From Ruminiclostridium sp. (GTDB lineage Bacteria > Bacillota_A > Clostridia > Oscillospirales > Ruminococcaceae): DNA of 9,276 nt. Below, one piece after another: positions 755 to 9,276 of this stretch; the stretch's first letter is position 1, and every line of letters starts with the position of its first letter. The notes beneath the pieces are model-generated. The model ran no database searches and was not told the origin of the DNA. It worked only from the letters and a program-made list of their open reading frames with translations. The position numbers and the translations under genes are program-made. Where the stretch lies: contig JAFZOA010000653.1 in assembly GCA_017550775.1 (NCBI GenBank), positions 1 to 9,276 on the forward strand, read 5' to 3'.

Positions 755-792
755 GATTTGCTTCACTTTTGCATCGCTTTATATGCTATTAT
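755..792 (+). promoter_or_regulatory. promoter region of regulator 1, with 23-base shared element
   Basis: Positions 755-777 are identical, base for base, to 6448-6470 upstream of regulator 2. The element contains GCTTCACTTTTGCATCGC. It is followed by TGCTATTAT (784-792), an extended -10 type sequence. No -35 with ideal spacing is evident: TTGCAT at 769-774 is only 12 bases from TATTAT, so the shared element may be an activator site rather than a plain -35. The regulator 1 start codon follows at 825 with AGGAG at 811-815. Confidence 0.6.
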
Positions 793-824
793 AAGAGATA
801 TCAGTAATCAAGGAGTATAAATAT

Positions 825-1670
825 ATGATATCCCTATCCGTAGATGACAGGCTCGCGGCGGCGCGGGCAATAACAGATATAATGAGCCACATTGACCCCG
901 AGGGTACGCACGAGGAAGAAAAAGACCCGGTCAGAGCCCTTGAAAAGGTCATTACACTGCACCCGGACATCGTGTGGCTGGATATAGAAATGGCGGGAAT
1001 GAACGGTCTGGAGCTTGCGGCTCAGATCAAGAAACAATCGCCGTTCACGAATATAGTGTTTGTAAGCGGTCACCCCGAGTACGCAATGGACGGCTTTTCG
1101 CTCCATGTCAGCGGATTTCTCGTAAAGCCGGTGACGGAAGCAAAGATACTCAACGAGATAGTCAATCTCCGCAGACCCGTGCTCTTCAACAACAATGCGT
1201 TTATAAGAGTGCAGTGCTTCGGTAATTTCGAGGTGCTTGACCGCTCGGGAAAGCCTCTGCATTTTTCCCGCACCATGAGCAAGGAAGCGTTCGCGTATCT
1301 GATAAACAAACGCGGTACAGGCGTATCTGTAGCGGAGCTCTGCGCTGTGCTGTGGGAGGACAGATGTGCGGACGCAGGCATAAAAGCCCAGTGCCGCTCG
1401 GTACTTCGGGGGCTGAAAATGGATCTGAAAGCAGTCGGAGCGGAAAGCGTGCTGATAAAGGAATGGAATGCGTGGAGCGTTAACACGGCGGCGATAAACT
1501 GCGATTACTACAATTTCCTTCAGGGCGACTCCTATGCGGTGAACTCGTTCCGTGGAGAATTCATGTCGCAGTATTCGTGGGCTGAAATGACTATCGGCTC
1601 GATAGTGAATACTACATCGGATTACTTTGAAGTCCCGGACGATTGGGGGAATGACGATGAGAGTGAGTAA
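825..1670 (+). CDS. response regulator, receiver plus SARP/OmpR-like winged-helix output
   Basis: The 281-residue protein has a receiver domain at about 1-115: acidic pair D7-D8, phosphoacceptor D53 in VWLDIEMAGMNG, switch Ser81 in VFVSGHPEYA, and the conserved Lys101-Pro102. A C-terminal DNA-binding domain spans about 127-235, starting IRVQCFGNFEVL and running through HFSRTMSKEAFAYLINKRG to the winged-helix region. This layout resembles the regulators whose output domain is like the N-terminal half of SARP activators; members of that fold bind direct repeats close to the -10. The start is fixed by AGGAG at 811-815. The 3' end overlaps the next gene, so it is co-transcribed with a membrane protein and a LytS-class kinase, its probable partner. 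It is the likely activator of the AGGGCGAA-repeat promoters at 3714 and 7413 (inference). Confidence 0.88.
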   Translation: MISLSVDDRLAAARAITDIMSHIDPEGTHEEEKDPVRALEKVITLHPDIVWLDIEMAGMNGLELAAQIKKQSPFTNIVFVSGHPEYAMDGFSLHVSGFLVKPVTEAKILNEIVNLRRPVLFNNNAFIRVQCFGNFEVLDRSGKPLHFSRTMSKEAFAYLINKRGTGVSVAELCAVLWEDRCADAGIKAQCRSVLRGLKMDLKAVGAESVLIKEWNAWSVNTAAINCDYYNFLQGDSYAVNSFRGEFMSQYSWAEMTIGSIVNTTSDYFEVPDDWGNDDESE

Positions 1671-2373
1671 ACGAGCTCTGCGAACTCTTCCCGGAATGCT
1701 GCTGCTCGAAATGCTCACACAGGTCATTACGCTCGCTTTTATCGGTATCGGCGCGCTTATCAAGGCGACCGGCAGTTCTGCGGCGGCCGATGTGACAGTG
1801 TTAGCTTCGGGCCTTGTTCTTCTTGCGATATGGATGACGGGTGCGGTATGCCTTTACGGGATAATGGATCTGTCGAAATACTTCCGTTATTCATGGTATC
1901 TGCACATAGTCTATTTCGTGATAAAGGCAGTAGTGCTGGTGCTCGACGGCATATCCGCCGTCATGGGTGAGGGCATTTCTCAGGAAACGCTGAACCTTTT
2001 CGGTGCCGCCGCGGACTTCCTTTCATCGGTGCGCGAGCTTTCCGGCATAGCTGCACAGTGCCTTGTCATGCTCGGATTCCGGACGCTGCTTGAAAAGCTC
2101 GGCGAACGCGATTTCGGCAGGAAATGCCGGAAATATGTTCACATCTTCCTGATAGTTGGGATTCTGTTCTTCCTGAATAATATCACCGGGCTTGTGATAC
2201 AGCTGCTTATACCTGCACCGGCCGATCAGCCCGCCGTGGAATATCTTCCGGTGCTTGTCATTTACGCGATACTGAACATATTCACAACCGCGGTCAGCAT
2301 ACCCGCGTTCCTTACGGCGAGAAAGTCCTGCAAAACGATATACGGCACACTCAGGAAAGCGCAGGTGGAGTAA
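1657..2373 (+). CDS. polytopic membrane protein of the two-component operon
   Basis: I do not recognise this 238-residue protein. It is strongly hydrophobic, with about six likely membrane segments at residues 12-36, 46-70, 80-103, 120-143, 159-186 and 195-220, and basic stretches between them (for example KLGERDFGRKCRKY at 147-160). Two ATG codons, at 1651 and 1657, are possible. I prefer 1657 because GGGGGA (1645-1650) then sits six bases upstream; the 1651 start would leave no spacing. The gene overlaps the end of the regulator by 14 bases, and its stop codon touches the kinase ATG, so all three are probably translationally coupled. A role in signal sensing, peptide transport or immunity with the adjacent kinase is possible, but no motif decides this. 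Confidence 0.75.
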   Translation: MRVSKRALRTLPGMLLLEMLTQVITLAFIGIGALIKATGSSAAADVTVLASGLVLLAIWMTGAVCLYGIMDLSKYFRYSWYLHIVYFVIKAVVLVLDGISAVMGEGISQETLNLFGAAADFLSSVRELSGIAAQCLVMLGFRTLLEKLGERDFGRKCRKYVHIFLIVGILFFLNNITGLVIQLLIPAPADQPAVEYLPVLVIYAILNIFTTAVSIPAFLTARKSCKTIYGTLRKAQVE

Positions 2374-3636
2374 ATGGAACAATTCATATACGGCGACATA
2401 CTCTCGGCGCTTATTCTTGTCCTGCTTGCGGCAACGCTTGTTATCAAGGATCGCGAGAACCGGACTGTCTCATTCTTTATCCCGGGCGTTCTTGTCGCGC
2501 TGTTTTGCACAGCGTTCTCGATCTATTGCAATACGGTACTTCCGGCAGAGCTTCGGAAAGGCACAGATCCCGCTCTCGCGGAGATCGAGCCGTGTATTCT
2601 GATGTTCGTAAAGCTCTGTGAGGCGTTCTCGTTATCATTCTTCTGCCTGTTCCTGAAAACGGCGCTGTACAGGAACTCGCACTCCGGGGATAAGCTGTTT
2701 ACCGTGCTCTCGTTTGTATGCGTTCCACTTACAATTATTGCCGCATTTCTGCCGGTACGGGATCACGCTTACGCTGTGGTATTCCTGCTCCAGACTGTGC
2801 TGTTCATACTTGCTGTAATGTTTTCCGGAGCCGAACGCAACGTCCGCGCATGGTTCATCACTGCCGGAGCGATATACGCCGTCACCTGCATTATCCGAGC
2901 CGTAAGTCCGGAGACCGATCTCGGCAGCATAGGTTTAATGCTGCTGTATCTTACGGTATTCATAGGCTATGAAGTCCGGCTCAAAAACGATATGCTGAAA
3001 CGGGAACTTGATCTCTCGGAGGCGAATAATGCGCTGCTCATGCGGCAGATATCACCGCACTTTATCTTCAACTCGTTACAGGTCATAACCGGGCTCTGCG
3101 ACAGCGAACCGGACAAGGTAAAGCCCGCTCTCACGCATTTCTCGGAATACCTGCGCGGCAACCTCGAATCTATCACGACGAACGAGCTGATACCGTTCAC
3201 GAAGGAGCTTGCCCACACCAAGGAATACCTCGCCCTCGAACAGTACGGCGACGGCAGGGATTTCACGGTGGAGTATGACCTTGAAGTGACCGGGTTCATG
3301 CTCCCGCCTCTGGTAATGCAGCCCATTGTCGAGAACGCGGTACACTACGGCATCGGCACCCGCACACAGGGCGGGCATATCGTGATAGAGACCTCGGACA
3401 CGCCGTTTGCGACGCTGATACGGGTTAAGGACGACGGCACGGGTAAAAGCACGATCACCGAGCAGCAGAAGACCCGTCAGAGCGTCGGTATGCAGAATGT
3501 CCGTGCGCGGCTCAAAGCGCTGTGCGGCGGTGATCTGATATTCGAGAGCTCGGACAAGGGAACAACGGTAACTATCACCATACCGAAAACCGACACCGAT
3601 AATGTCGGGAGACAAAATCACGGCCGAAATCAATGA
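2374..3636 (+). CDS. LytS-class sensor histidine kinase with multi-TM sensor
   Basis: The 420-residue protein has about seven hydrophobic segments in residues 8-200 (near 8-25, 33-53, 73-95, 107-126, 132-151, 160-178 and 184-200). A short linker likely to be helical (201-223) follows, then a His_kinase (PF06580)-type core. The phosphoacceptor is H229 in QISPHFIFNSL, the N box is PIVENAVHYG with N321, and the ATP-lid motifs are DDGTGK (353-358) and VGMQNVRARL (371-380). Membrane-embedded kinases of this class often sense peptides or cell-envelope signals. The ATG follows the preceding stop without a gap, and the ribosome binding site lies inside the upstream gene (AGGTGGAG). It is the only kinase in the window, so it should phosphorylate regulator 1. 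Regulator 2 lacks the phosphoacceptor Asp. A terminator follows at 3676. Confidence 0.9.
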   Translation: MEQFIYGDILSALILVLLAATLVIKDRENRTVSFFIPGVLVALFCTAFSIYCNTVLPAELRKGTDPALAEIEPCILMFVKLCEAFSLSFFCLFLKTALYRNSHSGDKLFTVLSFVCVPLTIIAAFLPVRDHAYAVVFLLQTVLFILAVMFSGAERNVRAWFITAGAIYAVTCIIRAVSPETDLGSIGLMLLYLTVFIGYEVRLKNDMLKRELDLSEANNALLMRQISPHFIFNSLQVITGLCDSEPDKVKPALTHFSEYLRGNLESITTNELIPFTKELAHTKEYLALEQYGDGRDFTVEYDLEVTGFMLPPLVMQPIVENAVHYGIGTRTQGGHIVIETSDTPFATLIRVKDDGTGKSTITEQQKTRQSVGMQNVRARLKALCGGDLIFESSDKGTTVTITIPKTDTDNVGRQNHGRNQ

Positions 3637-3675
3637 AATTTAACAACTTTGTATGAATAACCAAAGCAAGTTCTG

Positions 3676-3705
3676 AAAACCTTGTGCATATTGCATAAGG
3701 TTTTT
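3676..3705 (+). terminator. terminator after the kinase operon
   Basis: AAAACCTTGTGCA (3676-3688) pairs with TGCATAAGGTTTT (3692-3704) across a 3-base loop, with one G-U pair. The A run before and the T run after the stem fit a rho-independent, possibly bidirectional, terminator. It starts about 40 bases after the kinase stop and ends about 10 bases before the direct repeats of the next promoter. It corresponds in position to the hairpin at 7376. Confidence 0.75.
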
Positions 3706-3713
3706 GCCTTTTC

Positions 3714-3747
3714 AGGGCGAAATAGGGCGAACTTGGTGTGATATAAT
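3714..3747 (+). promoter_or_regulatory. array 1 promoter with tandem AGGGCGAA operator
   Basis: Two copies of AGGGCGAA (3714-3721 and 3724-3731) repeat with a period of 10 bases, one helical turn. Ten bases later comes TGATATAAT, an extended -10 (TATAAT at 3742-3747). No good -35 is present; the repeats occupy its place. Direct repeats replacing the -35 are the known arrangement for SARP/OmpR-fold activators. The block 3706-3747 matches 7405-7446 at 40 of 42 bases by my alignment. It should drive the two precursors and the radical SAM gene. Confidence 0.8.
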
Positions 3748-3756
3748 ATAAAAAAG

Positions 3757-3771
3757 GACCGGGAAACGGTC
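3757..3771 (+). other. 5' leader hairpin of array 1 transcript
   Basis: GACCG (3757-3761) and CGGTC (3767-3771) can pair around a GGAAA loop, just downstream of the expected start of transcription and seven bases before the ribosome binding site. It could protect the 5' end of the mRNA or influence translation. The stem is short, and the array 2 leader lacks an obvious equivalent. Confidence 0.35.
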
Positions 3772-3791
3772 AACCAAAAGGAGGAATCACT

Positions 3792-4208
3792 ATGACGCTT
3801 GAAGAATTCAGAAAGAAGCTTGACGGGGACGAGGCGTTCCGCGCAGAAGTCGAAGCGAAAGCAAAGGCACTCAAAGAGCTGAACCCGGATAAGAGTGACC
3901 CTGAGATCGACCGTATGTTCTCCGCAGAGTACGGTGTAGAGATCTCCTCGGGCAAGGAGATCAATGATGACGATATGGATGCTGTTGCGGGGGGCGTATT
4001 GTTTGCCGGTGAATTAGCAACAGACGGCCATGAACTGAATTGCATATTAACTTTCTATTGGGGCAAAGCGAATGCGAGCTGGAGGACCAGGGTCTGTCAG
4101 GACTGCAAGGTGAACCTGGAAAGGACTGATTGGCTTACATCGGACAGATTTCTGTGTCCCAAATGCAATACTCTTTACTGGTGGCTGGCTTCTGCGAAGA
4201 AGTCTTAG
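3792..4208 (+). CDS. RiPP-like precursor 1 (Nif11-type leader, Cys-rich 70-residue core)
   Basis: The 138-residue protein splits at a double glycine. The leader (1-68) is charged and probably helical: it starts MTLEEFRKKLDGDEAFRAEV and ends EINDDDMDAVAGG. It resembles Nif11-like leader peptides of the TIGR03798 type. The predicted core (69-138) has five Cys: one in GHELNC (core residue 16), then CQDC (34-37) and CPKC (54-57), with many aromatic residues (FYW, WWL). Two CxxC pairs 16 residues apart look like a zinc-ribbon knuckle pair, but Cys thioether formation by the downstream radical SAM enzyme is an equally valid reading. AAGGAGG at 3778-3784 fixes the start. It is the first gene after the repeat promoter. 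Leader removal would need a C39-type protease not present in this window. Confidence 0.85.
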   Translation: MTLEEFRKKLDGDEAFRAEVEAKAKALKELNPDKSDPEIDRMFSAEYGVEISSGKEINDDDMDAVAGGVLFAGELATDGHELNCILTFYWGKANASWRTRVCQDCKVNLERTDWLTSDRFLCPKCNTLYWWLASAKKS

Positions 4209-4239
4209 TATAAATAAATCATAGCAAGGAGGAATCACT

Positions 4240-4656
4240 ATGACACTTGAAGAATTCAGAAAGAAGCTTGACGGGGACGAGGCGTTCCGCACAGAGGTCG
4301 AAACAAAAGCAAAGGCGCTCAAAGAGCAGAACCCGGACAAGGGTGACCACGAGCGTGAGAAGATGCTGTGCGCTGAGTATGGAGTAGCAATGCCCGCAGG
4401 AACAGAGATCAACGACGATGATATGGATGCTGTTGCGGGCGGAAAAGATGCGGCTAACGGTCACGAGATCGGCTGTTTTTGTTGGTTTACCTGGTATATA
4501 AACGAAGGTGAAGCAGGGTATAAAAGTGGCGTATGCGTAAGATGCAACAGTCCATTGGAGAAGAAGTTTGACCATGGTGACAACGAAGTAAGAAGATGCT
4601 TGACTTGCGGCATTTGGTATATTAAGCAGCCAAATGGCAGTTTTAGGTTGGGTTGA
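4240..4656 (+). CDS. RiPP-like precursor 2 (same leader family, Cys-rich core)
   Basis: This 138-residue paralogue of precursor 1 has the same leader length (68) and a nearly identical leader start. The DNA from the AAGGAGG site (4226-4232) through the first 18 or so codons is almost the same as 448 bases upstream, so the pair arose by duplication. The leader ends EINDDDMDAVAGG and has an unusual Cys43. The core (70 residues) has diverged: GHEIGCFC near its start, then CVRC (core 31-34) and CLTC (52-55), followed by GIWY. The Cys layout therefore stays like precursor 1 (one or two Cys, then two CxxC pairs) while other residues differ. It lies 31 bases after precursor 1 with no terminator between them. 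Confidence 0.85.
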   Translation: MTLEEFRKKLDGDEAFRTEVETKAKALKEQNPDKGDHEREKMLCAEYGVAMPAGTEINDDDMDAVAGGKDAANGHEIGCFCWFTWYINEGEAGYKSGVCVRCNSPLEKKFDHGDNEVRRCLTCGIWYIKQPNGSFRLG

Positions 4657-4683
4657 TTCTGAACCTGAGTAATCAATAAGCCA

Positions 4684-4755
4684 AGGCATTCCGTGCGTTG
4701 CTTTTGAACGGACAGGTATAGAATATGTATATCAGATTATCGGATAATGCACTGC
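4684..4755 (+). repeat. partial duplication, copy 1 (truncated leader plus rSAM start)
   Basis: Bases 4684-4750 are identical to 4808-4874; after one mismatch four more match, giving 71 of 72. The unit covers the second half of a truncated leader ORF and the first codons of the radical SAM gene. Here the copied start (ATG at 4725, reading MYIRLSDNAL) runs into a stop at 4803-4805, so it is a 26-codon echo of the enzyme start. This copy lacks the leader start and its ribosome binding site. Confidence 0.9.
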
Positions 4756-4770
4756 AAAGGAGGAATCACT

Positions 4771-4845
4771 ATGATGACAATGGAAGAATTCAGAAAAAAG
4801 CATGACGAGGCATTCCGTGCGTTGCTTTTGAACGGACAGGTATAG
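4771..4845 (+). pseudogene. truncated precursor leader ORF upstream of the radical SAM gene
   Basis: A 24-codon ORF reads MMTMEEFRKKHDEAFRALLL then NGQV and stop. Residues 3-17 match the precursor leader start MTLEEFRKKLDGDEAFRA with two residues missing, and the ribosome binding site (AAAGGAGGAATCACT) equals that of precursors 1 and 2. There is no DAVAGG and no core. The stop ends three bases before the radical SAM ATG, which itself has only a weak site (GGACAGG at 4834-4840). The remnant may serve as a translational coupler for the enzyme. Alternatively it is only debris of array recombination. Confidence 0.7.
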
Positions 4846-4879
4846 AATATGTATATCAGATTATCGGATAATGCGCTGC
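4808..4879 (+). repeat. partial duplication, copy 2
   Basis: This is the second copy of the 72-base unit starting at 4684, offset by 124 bases. It runs from codon 13 of the truncated leader ORF into the first ten codons of the radical SAM gene. The 52 bases between the copies (4756-4807) carry the precursor-type ribosome binding site and leader start. Confidence 0.9.
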
Positions 4880-6345
4880 TGCGCGGCTGGCTCGATATGA
4901 CTCGAACCGTCGTCGGACGCACACCTCTGCCCGACACGAGTGCGGAGGGCGGGCTCAGGCTGCGTTATCACTACGAACAGCGCCCGCTGAAATTCACGCG
5001 GGAGGAGTATCAGTTCGTCAAGCGCCTTGACGGGCAGACCGATTTCCCGGCGCTTGACGAAGCCGAACAGGCTGTGCTTGAAAAGCTGATGCAGCATGGC
5101 TTTGTGCAGATCTCGGAAAGCCCTCTGCCGCCGCTTTCCTACGAGCAGCTGTACTTGGGCTATAAAACGCTGCATCTGCGCTCCTGCACATGGTCGGTTA
5201 CGGGCAAGTGCAATTACCGCTGCAAGCACTGCATACTCTCCGCCCCGGATGGAAAGCACCCGCAGCTCAGCCTTGACCGGTGTCGGGAGCTTGTGCGGCA
5301 GATCGCAGACTGCGGCGTTCACAGCGTCATACTGACGGGCGGAGAGCCCCTGCTGCGCCCGGATTTTCCGGAGATCGTGGATATGCTCACGGAGCGTGAC
5401 ATCTGCATCAAAACGATCATGTCCAACGGCAGATTTGTGACGGACGCGCTGCTCGATCATCTCGGAATGCGCGGACAGCACCCGTCCTTCCAGATCAGCT
5501 TTGACGGCACGAACGGCGGCCACGACTGGCTGCGCGGAGTTGAGGGCGCGGAGCAGGACGCGATAAGAGCGATAAAGTTGCTGATAAGCCGCGGGTTCTA
5601 TGTCACGGCTTCGATGTGTATGCACAAGGGCAACGCCGCTACGCTGCGCGATACGGCAAAGCTCATGGGCGGGCTCGGTGTCGAGCAATTTTCCGTCGGA
5701 GCGCCGCAGAAGCTCGGACTGTGGAGCGACCGCTCGGTGGAGCTGGGGCTGAGCGCTGAGGAACAGCGCGATGTCTGCCTTTCGTATATCCCGCAGTATT
5801 TCGAGGACGGAAGCCCCGTGTCGATAGCGCTGAACGGCCTTTTCGTCTGCGGAAAGCACGGTACGGCATACAGGGTTGAGATCGAACGGGAGTTTGAAAC
5901 GGTGGAGGAACTGAGCGGCGTTCTGATCTGTTCGTCTGCGCGGAACAATCCGTATATCTCCGCAGAGGGGCAGCTCATGCCCTGTCTCGGCTACGCGGCG
6001 GGCAGCTTTGCGGACGAATTTCCGAGCTTGTTTGACAAGCCGCTGAACGAGACGCTCACGGATTCGCTGACCTGCGATATTCTCTGCACCCGCTTTGAGA
6101 AGTATCTCGAACGTAATGAGAAATGCCGCACCTGTCCGAAGCTGCTGAAATGCGCCGGAGGCTGCCGGGCCTGCGGACTTGCGGGCGGCGGCGATCATCT
6201 GTGCATTGACGAGGCTGTCTGCGCACTTCATCTGAGCGGCAGTGCCGATATGGTCAGAGAGACCGCCGACCGTGCGATCGAGCGGCTCGGACTTGAAAAA
6301 GGCGTACAGGGCGAAATACCCCGTGCATTTGCTGTGGAGAACTGA
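4849..6345 (+). CDS. radical SAM/SPASM peptide maturase
   Basis: The 498-residue protein has an N-terminal region (about 1-95) including LRLRYHYEQRPLKFTREEYQ and ending in a predicted winged-helix-like stretch (LDEAEQAVLEKLMQHGFVQI), the usual place of a PqqD-like RiPP recognition element. The radical SAM core begins at about 112, with the cluster motif C121-x3-C125-x2-C128 (CNYRCKHC) and the GGEP motif at 164-167. The C-terminal region holds many Cys (361, 379, 409, 413, 426, 429, 435, 439, 442, 452, 458), including MPCLGY and CAGGCRAC, typical of a SPASM domain binding extra Fe-S clusters. Such enzymes form thioether, C-C or other crosslinks in peptides. Here the substrates should be precursors 1 and 2. 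The reaction cannot be told from sequence. The start is set by the truncated leader ORF stop at 4843; the shared N-terminus with the gene at 9207 supports it. Confidence 0.92.
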   Translation: MYIRLSDNALLRGWLDMTRTVVGRTPLPDTSAEGGLRLRYHYEQRPLKFTREEYQFVKRLDGQTDFPALDEAEQAVLEKLMQHGFVQISESPLPPLSYEQLYLGYKTLHLRSCTWSVTGKCNYRCKHCILSAPDGKHPQLSLDRCRELVRQIADCGVHSVILTGGEPLLRPDFPEIVDMLTERDICIKTIMSNGRFVTDALLDHLGMRGQHPSFQISFDGTNGGHDWLRGVEGAEQDAIRAIKLLISRGFYVTASMCMHKGNAATLRDTAKLMGGLGVEQFSVGAPQKLGLWSDRSVELGLSAEEQRDVCLSYIPQYFEDGSPVSIALNGLFVCGKHGTAYRVEIEREFETVEELSGVLICSSARNNPYISAEGQLMPCLGYAAGSFADEFPSLFDKPLNETLTDSLTCDILCTRFEKYLERNEKCRTCPKLLKCAGGCRACGLAGGGDHLCIDEAVCALHLSGSADMVRETADRAIERLGLEKGVQGEIPRAFAVEN

Positions 6346-6361
6346 ATAATATGATATCGGG

Positions 6362-6404
6362 TCAGGCTTATTGTGCAAACCGCTGCATAGTAAGCCTGAT
6401 TTTT
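6362..6404 (+). terminator. terminator after the radical SAM gene
   Basis: TCAGGCTTA (6362-6370) pairs perfectly with TAAGCCTGA (6391-6399). The 20-base loop contains a further TGCA/TGCA pairing. TTTTT follows at 6400-6404. It lies 16 bases after the stop and closes cassette 1 before the promoter of regulator 2. Confidence 0.75.
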
Positions 6405-6447
6405 GTGCAAATGGCAGATTTTTTCAAAAACGGCTCAAAAACCCCAT

Positions 6448-6490
6448 GATTTGCTTCACTTTTGCATCGCCCTGTTTGTTATGATATTAT
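6448..6490 (+). promoter_or_regulatory. promoter of regulator 2, with the shared 23-base element
   Basis: The 23-base element (6448-6470) is identical to 755-777. Within it TTGCAT (6462-6467) is 17 bases from TATTAT (6485-6490), which has TG two bases upstream, so here the element supplies a plausible -35. In the regulator 1 copy the same -10-like sequence lies five bases closer. Confidence 0.65.
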
Positions 6491-6511
6491 ATTATAGTAC
6501 CCGATAAAGGG

Positions 6512-7342
6512 GTGAGACCTATAAAAATACTTATCACAGACACCGACGAGACAGCGCGCAGAAAGCTGTCGGAGCTTGTCGCGGGACTGTCTCCGGGCGC
6601 GGAGATCATAACGCTTGCGGGCGTTGACGGATTTCAGACTTCCGTTGCCGGGACCGTATGGGATATCGCGTTTCTTGAGACCGAGATCGGAGAACATTCC
6701 GGCATAGCTCTCGCACTGGAGATAAAGAAGCATTCTCCGCGCTGCAACATCATATTCGTGACCTCGTTCCCGCAGCACAGCCTTGAAGCGTTCAGAGCGA
6801 GACCGAGCGGGTTTGTGCTGAAACCGTTCGGTGAGGACGATATCCGTCACGAGCTCGACGATCTGCGCTATCCGGTTGACGGGGCGCAGGAGGTGCGGAA
6901 AACGCTGCGCGTGGTGACCTTCGGCAGCTTCGCGGTATATGCGGGCGAGGCTCCGCTGAAATTCTCGCGGACGCTCTCAAAGGAGATATTCGCCTATCTT
7001 ATCGACCAGTGCGGCTATCCCGTGACAAGCCGCGATATTGCCGCCGATGTGCTCGGCGAGACGGCTTTCGATCCGAACATATCAAAGCGCGTATCAAAGG
7101 CTGTCGGCTATCTGCTGTCCGACCTGCAGAAAGCAGGCGCGGACGATGTGATAGACAAACAGAACCGTCAGATACGGGTCAACAGGCACCGTCTGTCCTG
7201 CGATCTTTACGACGCGCTCGACGGAAACGCAGATGCGCTTGCCGGATATGACGGTAATTACATGATAGAATACTCATGGTCAGAGACAAGTTTTGCTATG
7301 GGTCTGCTGGGTGAAAAAACAGGCTCAGGGAAACTTTTTTGA
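6512..7342 (+). CDS. atypical response regulator (phosphoacceptor Asp replaced by Glu)
   Basis: This 276-residue paralogue of regulator 1 has a receiver-like domain (about 4-120) and a SARP/OmpR-like winged-helix domain (about 129-235, starting LRVVTFGSFAVY, with KFSRTLSKEIFAYLIDQCG). The phosphoacceptor position reads AFLETEI, with Glu56 where regulator 1 has Asp53 (WLDIEM). The acidic pair is DTD rather than DD, and the conserved Lys-Pro (LKPF) remains. Glu at this site often mimics phosphorylation, so it may act without a kinase; none lies beside it. The GTG at 6512 has a ribosome binding site only if AAAGG directly abuts it. AAAGGGGTGA is better placed for initiation at ATA 6521, where the protein would begin (M)KILITDTDE like ordinary receivers. 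The gene precedes the array 2 promoter, its probable target. Confidence 0.85.
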   Translation: MRPIKILITDTDETARRKLSELVAGLSPGAEIITLAGVDGFQTSVAGTVWDIAFLETEIGEHSGIALALEIKKHSPRCNIIFVTSFPQHSLEAFRARPSGFVLKPFGEDDIRHELDDLRYPVDGAQEVRKTLRVVTFGSFAVYAGEAPLKFSRTLSKEIFAYLIDQCGYPVTSRDIAADVLGETAFDPNISKRVSKAVGYLLSDLQKAGADDVIDKQNRQIRVNRHRLSCDLYDALDGNADALAGYDGNYMIEYSWSETSFAMGLLGEKTGSGKLF

Positions 7343-7375
7343 AAAAATTGTATGAATAGACAAACGGAAATGCTG

Positions 7376-7403
7376 AAATCCTGTGCAATTTGCACAGGAT
7401 TTT
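7376..7403 (+). terminator. terminator after regulator 2
   Basis: AAATCCTGTGCA (7376-7387) and TGCACAGGATTT (7391-7402) form a perfect 12-base stem with an ATT loop and a short T run. It lies in the same place, relative to the next promoter, as the hairpin at 3676, and the two stems differ by paired changes. The palindromic TGTGCA/TGCACA half-sites could also bind a protein. Confidence 0.72.
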
Positions 7404-7412
7404 CGCCTTTTC

Positions 7413-7446
7413 AGGGCGAAATAGGGCGAAATTGGTGTGGTATAAT
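7413..7446 (+). promoter_or_regulatory. array 2 promoter with tandem AGGGCGAA operator
   Basis: AGGGCGAA occurs at 7413-7420 and 7423-7430 (period 10), followed after ten bases by TATAAT (7441-7446) with TGG just before it, an extended -10. Order and spacing equal the array 1 promoter. It should drive the four precursors and the maturase starting at 9207. Confidence 0.8.
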
Positions 7447-7480
7447 GTAGCTATACAATAAATAGACGGAGGTAAATCCG

Positions 7481-7804
7481 ATGAGTGAAGAAAAAACAAC
7501 AAAGTCTCCGGTTTCGGGTACCGAACTGGATGATGAAGCAATGGACGCGGTTGCGGGCGGTTTTGATTATCTCCCCGACGGCGACAGAGACGATTACTGG
7601 AGACCGGGTGAGACATTCGCCGTGACCGCATTCTGCAATCGGTGCGGGTGCGAGATCACAAACTGGAGAGCGACGATGGAGATCTATGGAAAAGTAGCAG
7701 TCTGCAATCACGGTTCTTCGATGGAGAGCAGTCATTACAGACGTTTCATCAAGAGCAACGGCGTGACGATCGAACCGTTCAACGGACGGCTGCTGGGCTG
7801 CTGA
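7481..7804 (+). CDS. RiPP-like precursor 3 (minimal leader, 80-residue core)
   Basis: The 107-residue protein carries only a 27-residue leader, MSEEKTTKSPVSGTELDDEA followed by MDAVAGG. It keeps the acidic stretch and the double-glycine site but lacks the helical Nif11-like part seen in the other precursors. The predicted core has five Cys: CNRCGC (core 25-30), one in VAVCNHG, and a C-terminal Cys. It does not follow the two-CxxC pattern of precursors 1, 2 and 5. Without the helical leader it may skip recognition by the maturase and only be exported, or be a separate substrate. GGAGG at 7468-7472 fixes the start. It is the first gene behind the array 2 promoter. Confidence 0.8.
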   Translation: MSEEKTTKSPVSGTELDDEAMDAVAGGFDYLPDGDRDDYWRPGETFAVTAFCNRCGCEITNWRATMEIYGKVAVCNHGSSMESSHYRRFIKSNGVTIEPFNGRLLGC

Positions 7805-7845
7805 TAAACGAAAACACCTGAAATCATACAAAGGAGGAATCTGCT

Positions 7846-8280
7846 ATGCTGAATGACGAAATCAGGAAGCTCACAGACCGGCTCAAAGACAAGCTCCTGC
7901 TTGCGGAGAGCGCAGACGAGATCAAGAATATCATCGCAAAAGCGGGCGGCGAGATCACAGCCGAGGACGCGGAGAAACTACTTGCGGAGATCAAGCAGAG
8001 CAAGCCTGCTTCCGGCGTGGATATCGACGACGACGAAATGGACGCGGTAGCAGGCGGCAGAGACTGGCAGAAAGAAGGATGTGCCGCGACCTGTGAACCG
8101 TCCAGCAATTGCTGGGGCACCGACTACTGCCGGTGGGTAGGTGTGAACTATTCCAATTTCTGGACAACCTGCCCCGATGGCTCGCCGCATAATATGGTGT
8201 TTTGGGAGGATGATTTTATGGGGACAAATCCGATCAAGAGATACAAATGCTCAAAATGCGGCTTTACAAAAATTGAATAA
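7846..8280 (+). CDS. RiPP-like precursor 4 (second leader family, seven-Cys core)
   Basis: The 144-residue protein has a 71-residue helical leader of a second type: LKDKLLLAESADEIKNIIAK, then AGGEITAEDAEKLLAEI, ending DIDDDEMDAVAGG. It shares only the last acidic and DAVAGG part with the cassette 1 leaders. The GG-E-[IV]-[TAS] motif at about 34-38 is like the middle of Nif11-type leaders. The core (73 residues) has seven Cys: four in the first 25 residues (GCAATCEPSSNC and YC), TTCPDG, and a terminal CSKCGF knuckle, plus many Trp. It is the most Cys-rich core here. AAAGGAGG at 7830-7837 precedes the ATG. It follows precursor 3 by 41 bases with no terminator. Confidence 0.83.
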   Translation: MLNDEIRKLTDRLKDKLLLAESADEIKNIIAKAGGEITAEDAEKLLAEIKQSKPASGVDIDDDEMDAVAGGRDWQKEGCAATCEPSSNCWGTDYCRWVGVNYSNFWTTCPDGSPHNMVFWEDDFMGTNPIKRYKCSKCGFTKIE

Positions 8281-8333
8281 ATCTATTAGTAAGCACCAAC
8301 GGAGTTTGAACAAACAACAAGGAGGATTTTAGG

Positions 8334-8747
8334 ATGAACGAAGCAACTAAGAAAGCGCTTACGGAGCAGAAGGATAAGCTCCTGCTCGCAGAGAGCGCAG
8401 ACGAGATCAAGGATATCGTCACAAAGGCGGGCGGCGAAATCGCAGCCGAGGACGCGGAGAAAATACTTGCGGAGATCAGGAGAGACAATGCCGCTTCCGG
8501 CACAGACATCGACGACGATGAAATGGACGCTGTCGCGGGCGGTTGGTCTTTCCCGTGGATCGACGGTAAGGCAACAGACGGAAAGGACATAGGATGTTGG
8601 ATGAGTGATTATCAAAACAAAAACGACGCAGGCTACGCTACAAACACCTGCCAGGATTGTAAAGTGACTTTGAGAGATAAAGCGTTACACGAGAAGGAAT
8701 GTCCCGTATGTCACAAAATCTATGAGTACTTCATTCCGGCATCGTAA
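8334..8747 (+). CDS. RiPP-like precursor 5 (second leader family, two-CxxC core)
   Basis: The 137-residue protein has a 70-residue leader close to that of precursor 4 (DKLLLAESADEIKDIVTKAG, then AAEDAEKILAEI, ending DIDDDEMDAVAGG). The 67-residue core, however, resembles precursor 1 of cassette 1: ATDGKDIGC (compare ATDGHELNC), CQDCKVTL (compare CQDCKVNL) and CPVCHKIY (compare CPKCNTLY). The Cys are at core positions 18, 36, 39, 53 and 56. The first Cys is followed by 17 residues before the first CxxC, exactly as in precursor 1. A precursor with a cassette 2 leader and a cassette 1-like core points to leader-core exchange at the DAVAGG junction. AAGGAGG at 8319-8325 precedes the ATG. Confidence 0.85.
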   Translation: MNEATKKALTEQKDKLLLAESADEIKDIVTKAGGEIAAEDAEKILAEIRRDNAASGTDIDDDEMDAVAGGWSFPWIDGKATDGKDIGCWMSDYQNKNDAGYATNTCQDCKVTLRDKALHEKECPVCHKIYEYFIPAS

Positions 8748-8796
8748 GGCGCAGCACAATATGACCGTCAGGTCAGCACAGTAAATCCGATAAACG

Positions 8797-8811
8797 GAGC
8801 TCACAGAGCTC
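8797..8811 (+). other. small hairpin between precursors 5 and 6
   Basis: GAGCTC (8797-8802) and GAGCTC (8806-8811) flank ACA and can pair. A few bases later the sequence is AT-rich but has no T run, so this is at most a processing or stability element, not a terminator. The 99-base gap between precursors 5 and 6 holds no other feature that I see. Confidence 0.25.
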
Positions 8812-8846
8812 TTAAATAATAATTCAATCTATCAGGAGGAAAAACC

Positions 8847-9110
8847 ATGAACGAACAGACAATTAAGATCGTAGAGCAGCTCAAAGACAAATTGGAACTT
8901 GCGGAAAGCGCCGACCAGATCAAGGAAATAATCGCAAAGGAGGGCGGCGAGGTATCCGACGAGATCGCAGAGAAAATGTTCGCACGGATCAAAGAGAAGA
9001 ATGCCGCTTCCGGCACAGACATCGACGATGACGAAATGGACGCTGTCGCGGGTGGAGCTTCAAACACTTGCACCTACTGGAGTATTTGTGACCGTTATTT
9101 TCTCGCATAA
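8847..9110 (+). CDS. RiPP-like precursor 6 (long leader, 17-residue core)
   Basis: The 87-residue protein has a 70-residue leader of the second family (LKDKLELAESADQIKEIIAK, GGEVSDEIAEKMFARI, DIDDDEMDAVAGG) followed by a core of only 17 residues, ASNTCTYWSICDRYFLA. It has two Cys separated by five residues and four aromatic residues. This is a typical size for a small cyclic peptide, in contrast to the 67-80-residue cores of its neighbours. It may instead be a truncated version of a longer core, but the 17 residues show no resemblance to the starts of the other cores. CAGGAGGA at 8833-8840 fixes the start. It is the last precursor before the second maturase start. Confidence 0.83.
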   Translation: MNEQTIKIVEQLKDKLELAESADQIKEIIAKEGGEVSDEIAEKMFARIKEKNAASGTDIDDDEMDAVAGGASNTCTYWSICDRYFLA

Positions 9111-9137
9111 TTATTTATCGGAGACAATTGTTCCCGC

Positions 9138-9159
9138 GGGCAGGAAAACGCTTCTGCCC
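9138..9159 (+). other. hairpin between the precursor array and the second maturase
   Basis: GGGCAGGA (9138-9145) pairs with TTCTGCCC (9152-9159), with one G-U pair and a 6-base loop. No T run follows directly. Its place between the array and the enzyme gene suits a partial terminator or an RNA-processing site that keeps enzyme expression below precursor expression (inference). Confidence 0.4.
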
Positions 9160-9206
9160 TCAGACTTACTTTAAACTTTTAGGCGGATACCCATAAGAGG
9201 TGAAGC

Positions 9207-9276
9207 ATGAAATACATTATTTCCGAAAATTACAGTCTGCGCGGGTGGAAGAAGCTCCCCTACGGACTGCAGAATC
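9207..9276 (+). CDS. probable second radical SAM maturase, first 23 codons (cut by edge)
   Basis: ATG at 9207 with AAGAGGTG at 9195-9202 opens a frame reading MKYIISENYSLRGWKKLPYG then LQN at the window edge. The start parallels that of the enzyme at 4849 (MYIRLSDNALLRGW): a short strand, a polar SEN/SDN turn, then LRGW. Its place after an array of precursors matches cassette 1. I infer a second radical SAM/SPASM enzyme for the cassette 2 leaders. No catalytic motif is visible yet, so it could also be another RiPP enzyme with the same N-terminal recognition domain. Confidence 0.6.
   Translation, partial: MKYIISENYSLRGWKKLPYGLQN

Follow-up and report, generated by a model that had tools for sequence, protein, structure and literature searches.

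Passages of PMC3023750, PMC2887384 and PMC4289311 describe precursor peptides of the Nif11/NHLP type together with radical S-adenosylmethionine (SAM) proteins and peptidase-transporters. We analysed a stretch of 9,276 nucleotides (nt) of Ruminiclostridium sp. DNA (the window), which carries a variant of these known systems for ribosomally synthesised and post-translationally modified peptides (RiPPs): a real pair of radical-SAM RiPP-type cassettes in matching order, both on the + strand, with control DNA in common. The reading that we consider fairly probable is that of two adjacent, separately derived cassettes under one shared control, in which crossovers join leaders to other cores. As in the Nif11/NHLP systems (TIGR03798, TIGR03796 and TIGR03797), in so far as the cited passages describe them, a long leader ending in VAGG precedes a variable, Cys-rich core, a radical SAM enzyme is encoded, and NHLM transporters are present, here in the genome of a relative. 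The locus differs from those systems in that the window leaders stay under the TIGR03798 cut-off, that a two-component system and a pseudo-receiver accompany two arrays under one direct-repeat site, and that cores of an ADGHEIGC type and zinc-ribbon-like cores recur.

Two further groups of systems are comparable. The prochlorosins, in the passages of PMC10783134 that deal with them, likewise have many Nif11-type precursors with a conserved leader and a varied core, served by one enzyme. That enzyme is the lanthipeptide synthetase ProcM, whereas here a radical SAM enzyme is found together with leader crossover between two related loci. In 8,160 rumen genomes 2,126 sactipeptide clusters were reported, the bulk of them in Ruminococcus (PMC8241843). 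Loci like that of the window may be among them; the relevant passages of that paper give counts by class, without a description of precursors of the window type.

The nearest genome compared (G001) is a draft in which the locus is spread over three contigs, C225, C220 and C160. Window positions 9129-9275 are 98.6% identical to C160, a contig of 6.6 kb whose locus (L011) extends about 3.3 kb beyond the point that matches window 9276. The features of the window are as follows.

755-777, +, 23-base element upstream of regulator 1 (exact copy at 6448)
825-1670, +, response regulator RR1: receiver domain with the canonical phospho-Asp (LDIEM) and a C-terminal domain thought to be DNA-binding (Pfam)
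1657-2373, +, hydrophobic membrane-type protein, start at about 1657, overlapping the end of RR1 (open reading frame (ORF) list; no Pfam match)
2374-3636, +, LytS-type sensor histidine kinase (Pfam His_kinase and HATPase_c)
3675-3705, +, hairpin before array 1, then T-rich sequence (folding z -4.6)
3714-3731, +, direct repeat AGGGCGAA-N2-AGGGCGAA, 10 nt 5' of TATAAT at 3742-3747 (exact second copy)
3792-4208, +, precursor P1: core with ATDGHELNC and a pair of CxxC knuckles, after a leader that extends to 3995 (ORF, alignment)
4240-4656, +, precursor P2: core with AANGHEIGC and a pair of CxxC knuckles, after a leader that extends to 4443 (ORF, alignment)
4771-4845, +, truncated leader frame of 24 codons, with the enzyme-1 start region duplicated around it at 4684-4755 and 4808-4879 (repeat comparison)
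4849-6345, +, radical SAM maturase 1 (enzyme 1), whose N-terminal domain resembles the one in leader-binding maturases (Pfam, model)
6448-6470, +, second copy of the 23-base element (exact match to 755-777)
6512-7342, +, pseudo-receiver regulator RR2: Glu in place of the phospho-Asp (G001: Val; alignment)
7375-7403, +, hairpin before array 2 (folding z -5.8)
7413-7430, +, second copy of the direct repeat, exact, 10 nt 5' of TATAAT at 7441-7446
7481-7804, +, precursor Q1: short leader of 27 aa, processing end only (DDEAMDAVAGG; ORF)
7846-8280, +, precursor Q2: core class B (GCAATCEPSSNC...; ORF, homologues)
8334-8747, +, precursor Q3: mosaic gene whose core belongs to class A (ATDGKDIGC and CxxC...CxxC; comparison with G001)
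8847-9110, +, precursor Q4: short core with two Cys (ORF)
9207-9276, +, 5' end of maturase 2 (enzyme 2, radical SAM/SPASM), complete as L011:3212-4615 in G001

The first set thus consists of RR1, the membrane-type protein, the kinase, P1, P2 and enzyme 1, and the second of RR2, Q1-Q4 and the start of enzyme 2. An earlier prediction from the letters of the window (the original prediction) had proposed that one order is repeated in two sets, and the gene content, the cis elements, the six precursors and the enzyme after each array agree with it. The membrane-type protein and the kinase that it assigned to the first set as extras were also recovered, the kinase by Pfam.

The 23-base element is present in two exact copies, as had been noticed; in 200 shuffles two matches never occurred, even when 3 mismatches were allowed. 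The predicted stem-loop and repeat promoter likewise held up. Both hairpins were more stable than all 200 shuffles, and in both arrays the 18-base direct repeat AGGGCGAA-AT-AGGGCGAA lies ahead of an extended -10 box (shuffle mean 0.01; none of 200 shuffles with two copies). The 74-nt block of hairpin, repeats and -10 box is 85% identical between the arrays. With at most one mismatch, the direct repeat occurred in a single one of 40 genus genomes, G001, where its 2 matches are the two array promoters; the remaining 39 had no match. Direct repeats and hairpins are conserved between the window and G001. A consensus promoter scan was uninformative (10 found, 8.6 expected), and an Rfam search for an RNA element gave no match at gathering scores. 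No exact 8-mer direct repeats with a 10-base period before a TATA-like box were found in L111, L014, L064 or L030. By eye, a hairpin with a T-run, GGAGAA repeats about 10 bases apart and a TATA-like box were seen in L111 (about 4280-4602, contig C36 of genome G097), 3' of the closest relative of RR2, an arrangement that possibly parallels the layout of the window.

The cassettes have this control DNA and their layout in common, but not a recent ancestry of their genes: the coding genes of the two sets are 34-36% identical, against the 85% of the promoter block. In a tree of 40 enzymes, enzyme 1 grouped with the enzyme of contig C65, whereas the YRB3002 enzyme was the partner of the enzyme-2 orthologue; both groupings had support of 100/100. 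Forcing enzymes 1 and 2 together (28 sequences) gave a tree that was 147 log units worse (approximately unbiased test, p-AU 3e-55). Forcing RR1 and RR2 together was also rejected (p-AU 0.005; 18 sequences, with RR2 on a long branch). The tree groups for both constraint tests were chosen from the finding, prior to tree building. Because the trees reject sisterhood of the enzymes and of the regulators, both were derived separately, and the duplication of a whole cassette, as contained in the original prediction, is not borne out.

The arrays themselves are mosaic. Q3 and its upstream DNA were compared with the G001 genes g2 and g3 in 30-column blocks. Up to 8392 the sequence matches g2 (24/27, 19/22, 29/30 and 28/30, versus 12, 12, 18 and 19 for g3), the block 8393-8422 is intermediate (23 for g2, 19 for g3), and from 8423 on it matches g3 (27-30 of 30, versus 4-25 for g2). 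Q3 fuses the leader of one relative gene (g2) to the core of another (g3). The single array-1 precursor of G001 combines the upstream region of P1 with the body of P2, and a 72-base duplication flanks the truncated leader at 4771, an insertion absent from contig C220. Based on the mosaic Q3, the fused array-1 gene and this duplication, recombination among leader copies alters both the length and the repertoire of the arrays. Such crossovers inside repeated leader DNA are shown by comparing the window with the nearest genome; the change may have taken place in the window or in G001. No clear crossover was seen for Q4 against g4/g5. Two leader types and two core types occurred in all four combinations (P0001, P0004, P0006 and P0007); P0006 and P0007 are present only on contigs of 1043 and 563 bases, and the crossover claim rests on the window and the G001 contigs. 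A statistic like the pairwise homoplasy index, calculated for 31 of 34 leader proteins (P0009 had no motif; P0030 and P0034 were left out), gave no signal (6 incompatible pairs among 21, from 7 informative sites; p 1.0) and was not used. The loci offer a directly testable case of repertoire change through leader-leader crossover.

Two precursor genes ending DAVAGG are present in array 1 (3792 and 4240) and four in array 2 (7481, 7846, 8334 and 8847), which fits the RiPP-type precursors with double-glycine leaders that had been predicted. All six frames, and those of both regulators, are open. In profile-profile comparison the Q leaders matched the G001 C141/L030 leaders (probability 94.8, E 5e-8), and the precursors of C141 (one scanned) and L030 pass TIGR03798 with scores of 55.4 and 33.7 (cut-off 32.3). 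The P and Q leaders match over 37 C-terminal columns ending in DDxMDAVAGG. PF07862 of Pfam had no match in the five window precursors scanned.

Homologue searches showed that one leader type bears several unrelated core classes. Class A starts with A-x-DG-[HKEN]-[ED]-[IMLF]-x-C, followed by CxxC...CxxC, class B has GCAAT[CV]E..., and a further class consists of short cores. The start motif of class A recurs under different leaders of C65, C141, C27 and C232 (14 sequences, two of which are the full and truncated forms of one gene). The core cysteines of Q2, Q3 and P2 are kept between the window and G001, and those of Q1 and Q4 differ. The processing end of the leader stands alone in Q1 and in two G001 peptides encoded after enzyme 2; these three may be exported without modification.

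A radical SAM enzyme had been predicted after each array, and the original prediction depended on a maturase-like domain in the gene at 9207. This gene runs off the end of the window; its full-length orthologue on C160 has 467 aa and exceeds the Pfam cut-offs for Radical_SAM (83.9, cut-off 29.5) and SPASM (22.3, cut-off 21.5). Enzyme 1 has a Pfam radical SAM domain (81.2 bits, cut-off 29.5), and no Pfam SPASM match was reported for it. Across 11 aligned rows, enzyme 1 among them, seven C-terminal Cys columns are invariant, as are the three Cys of CxxxCxxC. No listed NCBIfam family was reached at cut-off by enzyme 1, the enzyme-2 orthologue or the C141 enzyme, the best score of enzyme 1 being 105 of 400 (TIGR04250).

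The predicted structure of enzyme 1 (mean predicted local distance difference test score (pLDDT) 85.6) matched SkfB best (E 4.8e-16); the first eight fold matches were SkfB, SuiB, a sactipeptide maturase (5why, presumably CteB) and PqqE, then non-RiPP radical SAM enzymes. An N-terminal strand/helix domain is present in the model, and the alignment with SuiB covers 491-508 columns including gaps; this domain may be of the leader-binding kind (RiPP recognition element, PqqD-like). SkfB (6efn), SuiB (5v1q) and 5why are among the closest solved folds at 15-20% identity, and the type of crosslink cannot be inferred. Enzyme 1 and its G001 copy are 92% identical over the full length. The enzyme branch has five copies in G001, one with internal stops. 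This C21 paralogue (L065) contains three internal TGA codons and lies next to a STAS match. At E 1e-60 or better the enzyme was found in 17 of 297 sampled family genomes, and the branch is also present on Synergistota, Atopobiaceae and Lachnospiraceae contigs.

The linkage of precursor and enzyme was examined at 35 enzyme loci, after L012, a copy of the window locus, had been dropped. A candidate precursor was a frame of 55-200 aa, at most 4.5 kb from a branch enzyme and on the same strand, with GG at the expected place and an acidic leader. Candidates were found at 18 of the 35 loci, 45 in total, so that the predicted linkage extends to other genomes. Precursors lie directly 5' of the enzymes in the window and G001, and immediately next to the enzyme, on one side or the other, at many other loci. 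The loci without a candidate include all four Atopobiaceae loci and 4 of the 5 Synergistota loci examined; at L017, L075 and L076 double-glycine frames were present on the opposite strand. Defined precursors in which a core motif recurs can hereby be linked to a radical SAM branch that NCBIfam does not capture (three proteins scanned).

In 17 of the 45 candidates, a count that includes paralogous, non-independent genes, a pair of CxxC knuckles was found with a separation of 8-60 residues, versus 0.75 expected when each core was shuffled. At least one such candidate was found at 9 of the 18 loci, including the window and its orthologue L011. The paired knuckles suggest zinc-ribbon-like products, or could serve crosslinks or disulphides instead. 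Cut-offs of the Pfam zinc-ribbon families were not reached: the best score among 10 relatives scanned was Zn_ribbon_3 with 23.2 of 27 (L060, whose precursor passes both Nif11 models), and among five of the six window precursors it was Zn_ribbon_6 with 15.5 of 25 (P1). The Q3 model (mean pLDDT 67.5; 83-87 over residues 101-130) had no significant fold match (E 1.1 or worse), and the matches were mostly ribosomal and RNA-polymerase chains, which we take to be zinc-ribbon proteins. If the cores bind zinc, the range of radical SAM substrates in RiPP pathways would widen. We put forward only tentatively, as possible but rather improbable, that gut Clostridia harbour a Nif11-type branch of exported zinc-ribbon mini-proteins, with an enzyme acting on a folded metal-binding core, leader-core swapping and a regulon with a phosphorylation-independent pseudo-receiver. 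Among the papers listed on zinc ribbons and RiPPs, one precedent was found, PMC10787088, and absence from print is not claimed. Its passages on Pamtide type II precursors describe a RiPP precursor containing a zinc ribbon; unlike here, modification by an O-methyltransferase is proposed and the ribbon is of the DnaJ type.

RR1 and RR2 are 34% identical, and Pfam recognised a receiver domain in both (60.9 and 40.3 bits, cut-off 30.2), in line with this part of the receiver/winged-helix regulators that had been predicted. The phospho-accepting Asp is present in RR1 and lost from RR2. From 35 places listed (4 of these in G001), 16 RR loci of other genomes were fetched, and 17 of 17 receiver proteins from these loci have Asp at the phospho site. 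A kinase match was found at 11 of the 16; no convincing double-glycine precursor was seen at any of them with the motif used, which indicates that the kinase and regulator pair was probably recruited. The C-terminal domain of the regulators has a conserved sequence pattern and, we assume, resembles SARP-type winged helices. The targets of such winged helices are direct repeats that immediately precede -10 boxes. A literature search gave no paper that combines pseudo-receiver, response regulator and bacteriocin. The GTG start of RR2 (window 6512-6530) sits inside its own ribosome-binding-like stretch; an ATA three codons on, present in the window and in C220, would as a start codon fit the RR2 frame, the spacing and a typical receiver start (KILITD). 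This start context may mean weak translation.

Taken together, the LytS-type kinase would activate RR1, and RR1, possibly also RR2, would bind the AGGGCGAA direct repeats at the would-be -35 region of both array promoters, as the position and specificity of the repeats suggest. For RR2 the usual phosphorylation would be impossible. Each array would yield several precursors with one leader type and differing, mostly Cys-containing cores. By homology, the downstream radical SAM enzyme is expected to recognise the leader through its N-terminal domain and to modify the cores, after which a C39/NHLM transporter, encoded elsewhere in the genome of the relative, would cleave after GG and export the products. 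Crossovers in leader DNA fuse existing leaders to other cores and so change the repertoire. Of the single regulated multi-product system in the original prediction, the common cis elements and the several precursors stand, the whole-cassette duplication does not, and the regulation is putative.

Several points weigh against this reading. Regulator binding, expression, modification and export, and with them the activity of both cassettes, are predicted from sequence. None of the six window precursors reached the TIGR03798 cut-off of 32.3 (best Q2, 20.4), and the match of the P leaders to the Nif11-class profile is confined to the last 15 C-terminal columns. The C-terminal half of the regulators had no Pfam or PDB sequence match, so that its DNA-binding role, and the winged-helix part of the predicted regulators, are presumed. 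By the filters used, 17 of the 35 enzyme loci had no candidate precursor. No C39 peptidase ABC transporter (TIGR03796) was found among the ORFs of the 9.3-kb window or, up to its end, on C160, although one just past 9276 had been proposed as a check. The HlyD-like gene of C65 is under the TIGR03794 cut-off (39 of 156.2), and G001 is a draft of 240 contigs.

That the genes come in equal order, with cis elements that are identical or similar, could also mean that a single ancestral cassette was copied whole in tandem and diverged later. With enzyme and regulator sisterhood rejected, and the genes so much less alike than the promoter block, this is very unlikely; tandem duplication of the whole cassette is rejected by both trees under the models used. 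The truncated leader at 4771, the lost phospho-Asp of RR2 and the three internal TGA codons of the C21 paralogue would suit arrays left over from a bacteriocin locus, in decay and not expressed. We find this hardly credible, given the open frames of six precursors and two regulators, the direct repeats, hairpins and cysteines of the Q2, Q3 and P2 cores kept in G001, and the full-length conservation of enzyme 1.

The arrays might, on the other hand, encode exported small zinc-ribbon proteins or bacteriocins that are left unmodified, or modified in part, by a linked enzyme serving mainly another substrate. The enrichment of paired knuckles, the short-leader peptides (Q1 and the LysM peptide of G001), which lack a leader part able to bind the enzyme, and the enzyme loci without a candidate precursor are consistent with this. 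It nevertheless seems unlikely, as precursors adjoin the enzyme at many other loci, the enzyme resembles leader-binding maturases, and a modification site would be expected to reappear under different leaders, as the class-A motif does.

A phage or other mobile origin was considered and rejected: viral contigs held no confirmed relative of enzyme 1 and no exact match to the direct repeat. In 11 phage records only partial matches of <60% identity were found. In PHROGs, seven families were matched by enzyme 1, of which five are radical SAM, one is an Fe-S oxidoreductase and one is unknown; the membrane protein and four precursors matched none.

Four NHLM peptidase-transporters of G001 exceed the TIGR03796 cut-off, on C141, C79, C65 and C10. 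On C65 and C141, precursors, enzyme and both ABC transporters are found together, and the C65 transporters pass TIGR03796 (913 of 853) and TIGR03797 (713.5 of 709.4). On C160, enzyme 2 is followed by a 97-residue double-glycine peptide, a double-glycine LysM peptide, a STAS protein and an anti-sigma-type ATPase, and the last gene is the start of a protein resembling the N-terminal part of the SpoIIE-type phosphatase of C65. The LysM peptide (L011:4926-5210), two genes after enzyme 2, has a double-glycine leader and a LysM domain as its core (24.7 bits, cut-off 20.9). At 12 loci with a strong C39 transporter match, a SpoIIE-type phosphatase was present at 8, STAS at 8 and an anti-sigma-type ATPase at 6; this partner-switch module shares stretches with RiPP export genes.

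At the other end of the window, positions 1-243 on the - strand encode the N-terminal part of a protein that we take to resemble an alpha/beta hydrolase. The match of C225 to the window starts at 669. A 37-base stretch at 340-376 recurs at four other places in G001 with 95-100% identity and is probably a dispersed repeat.

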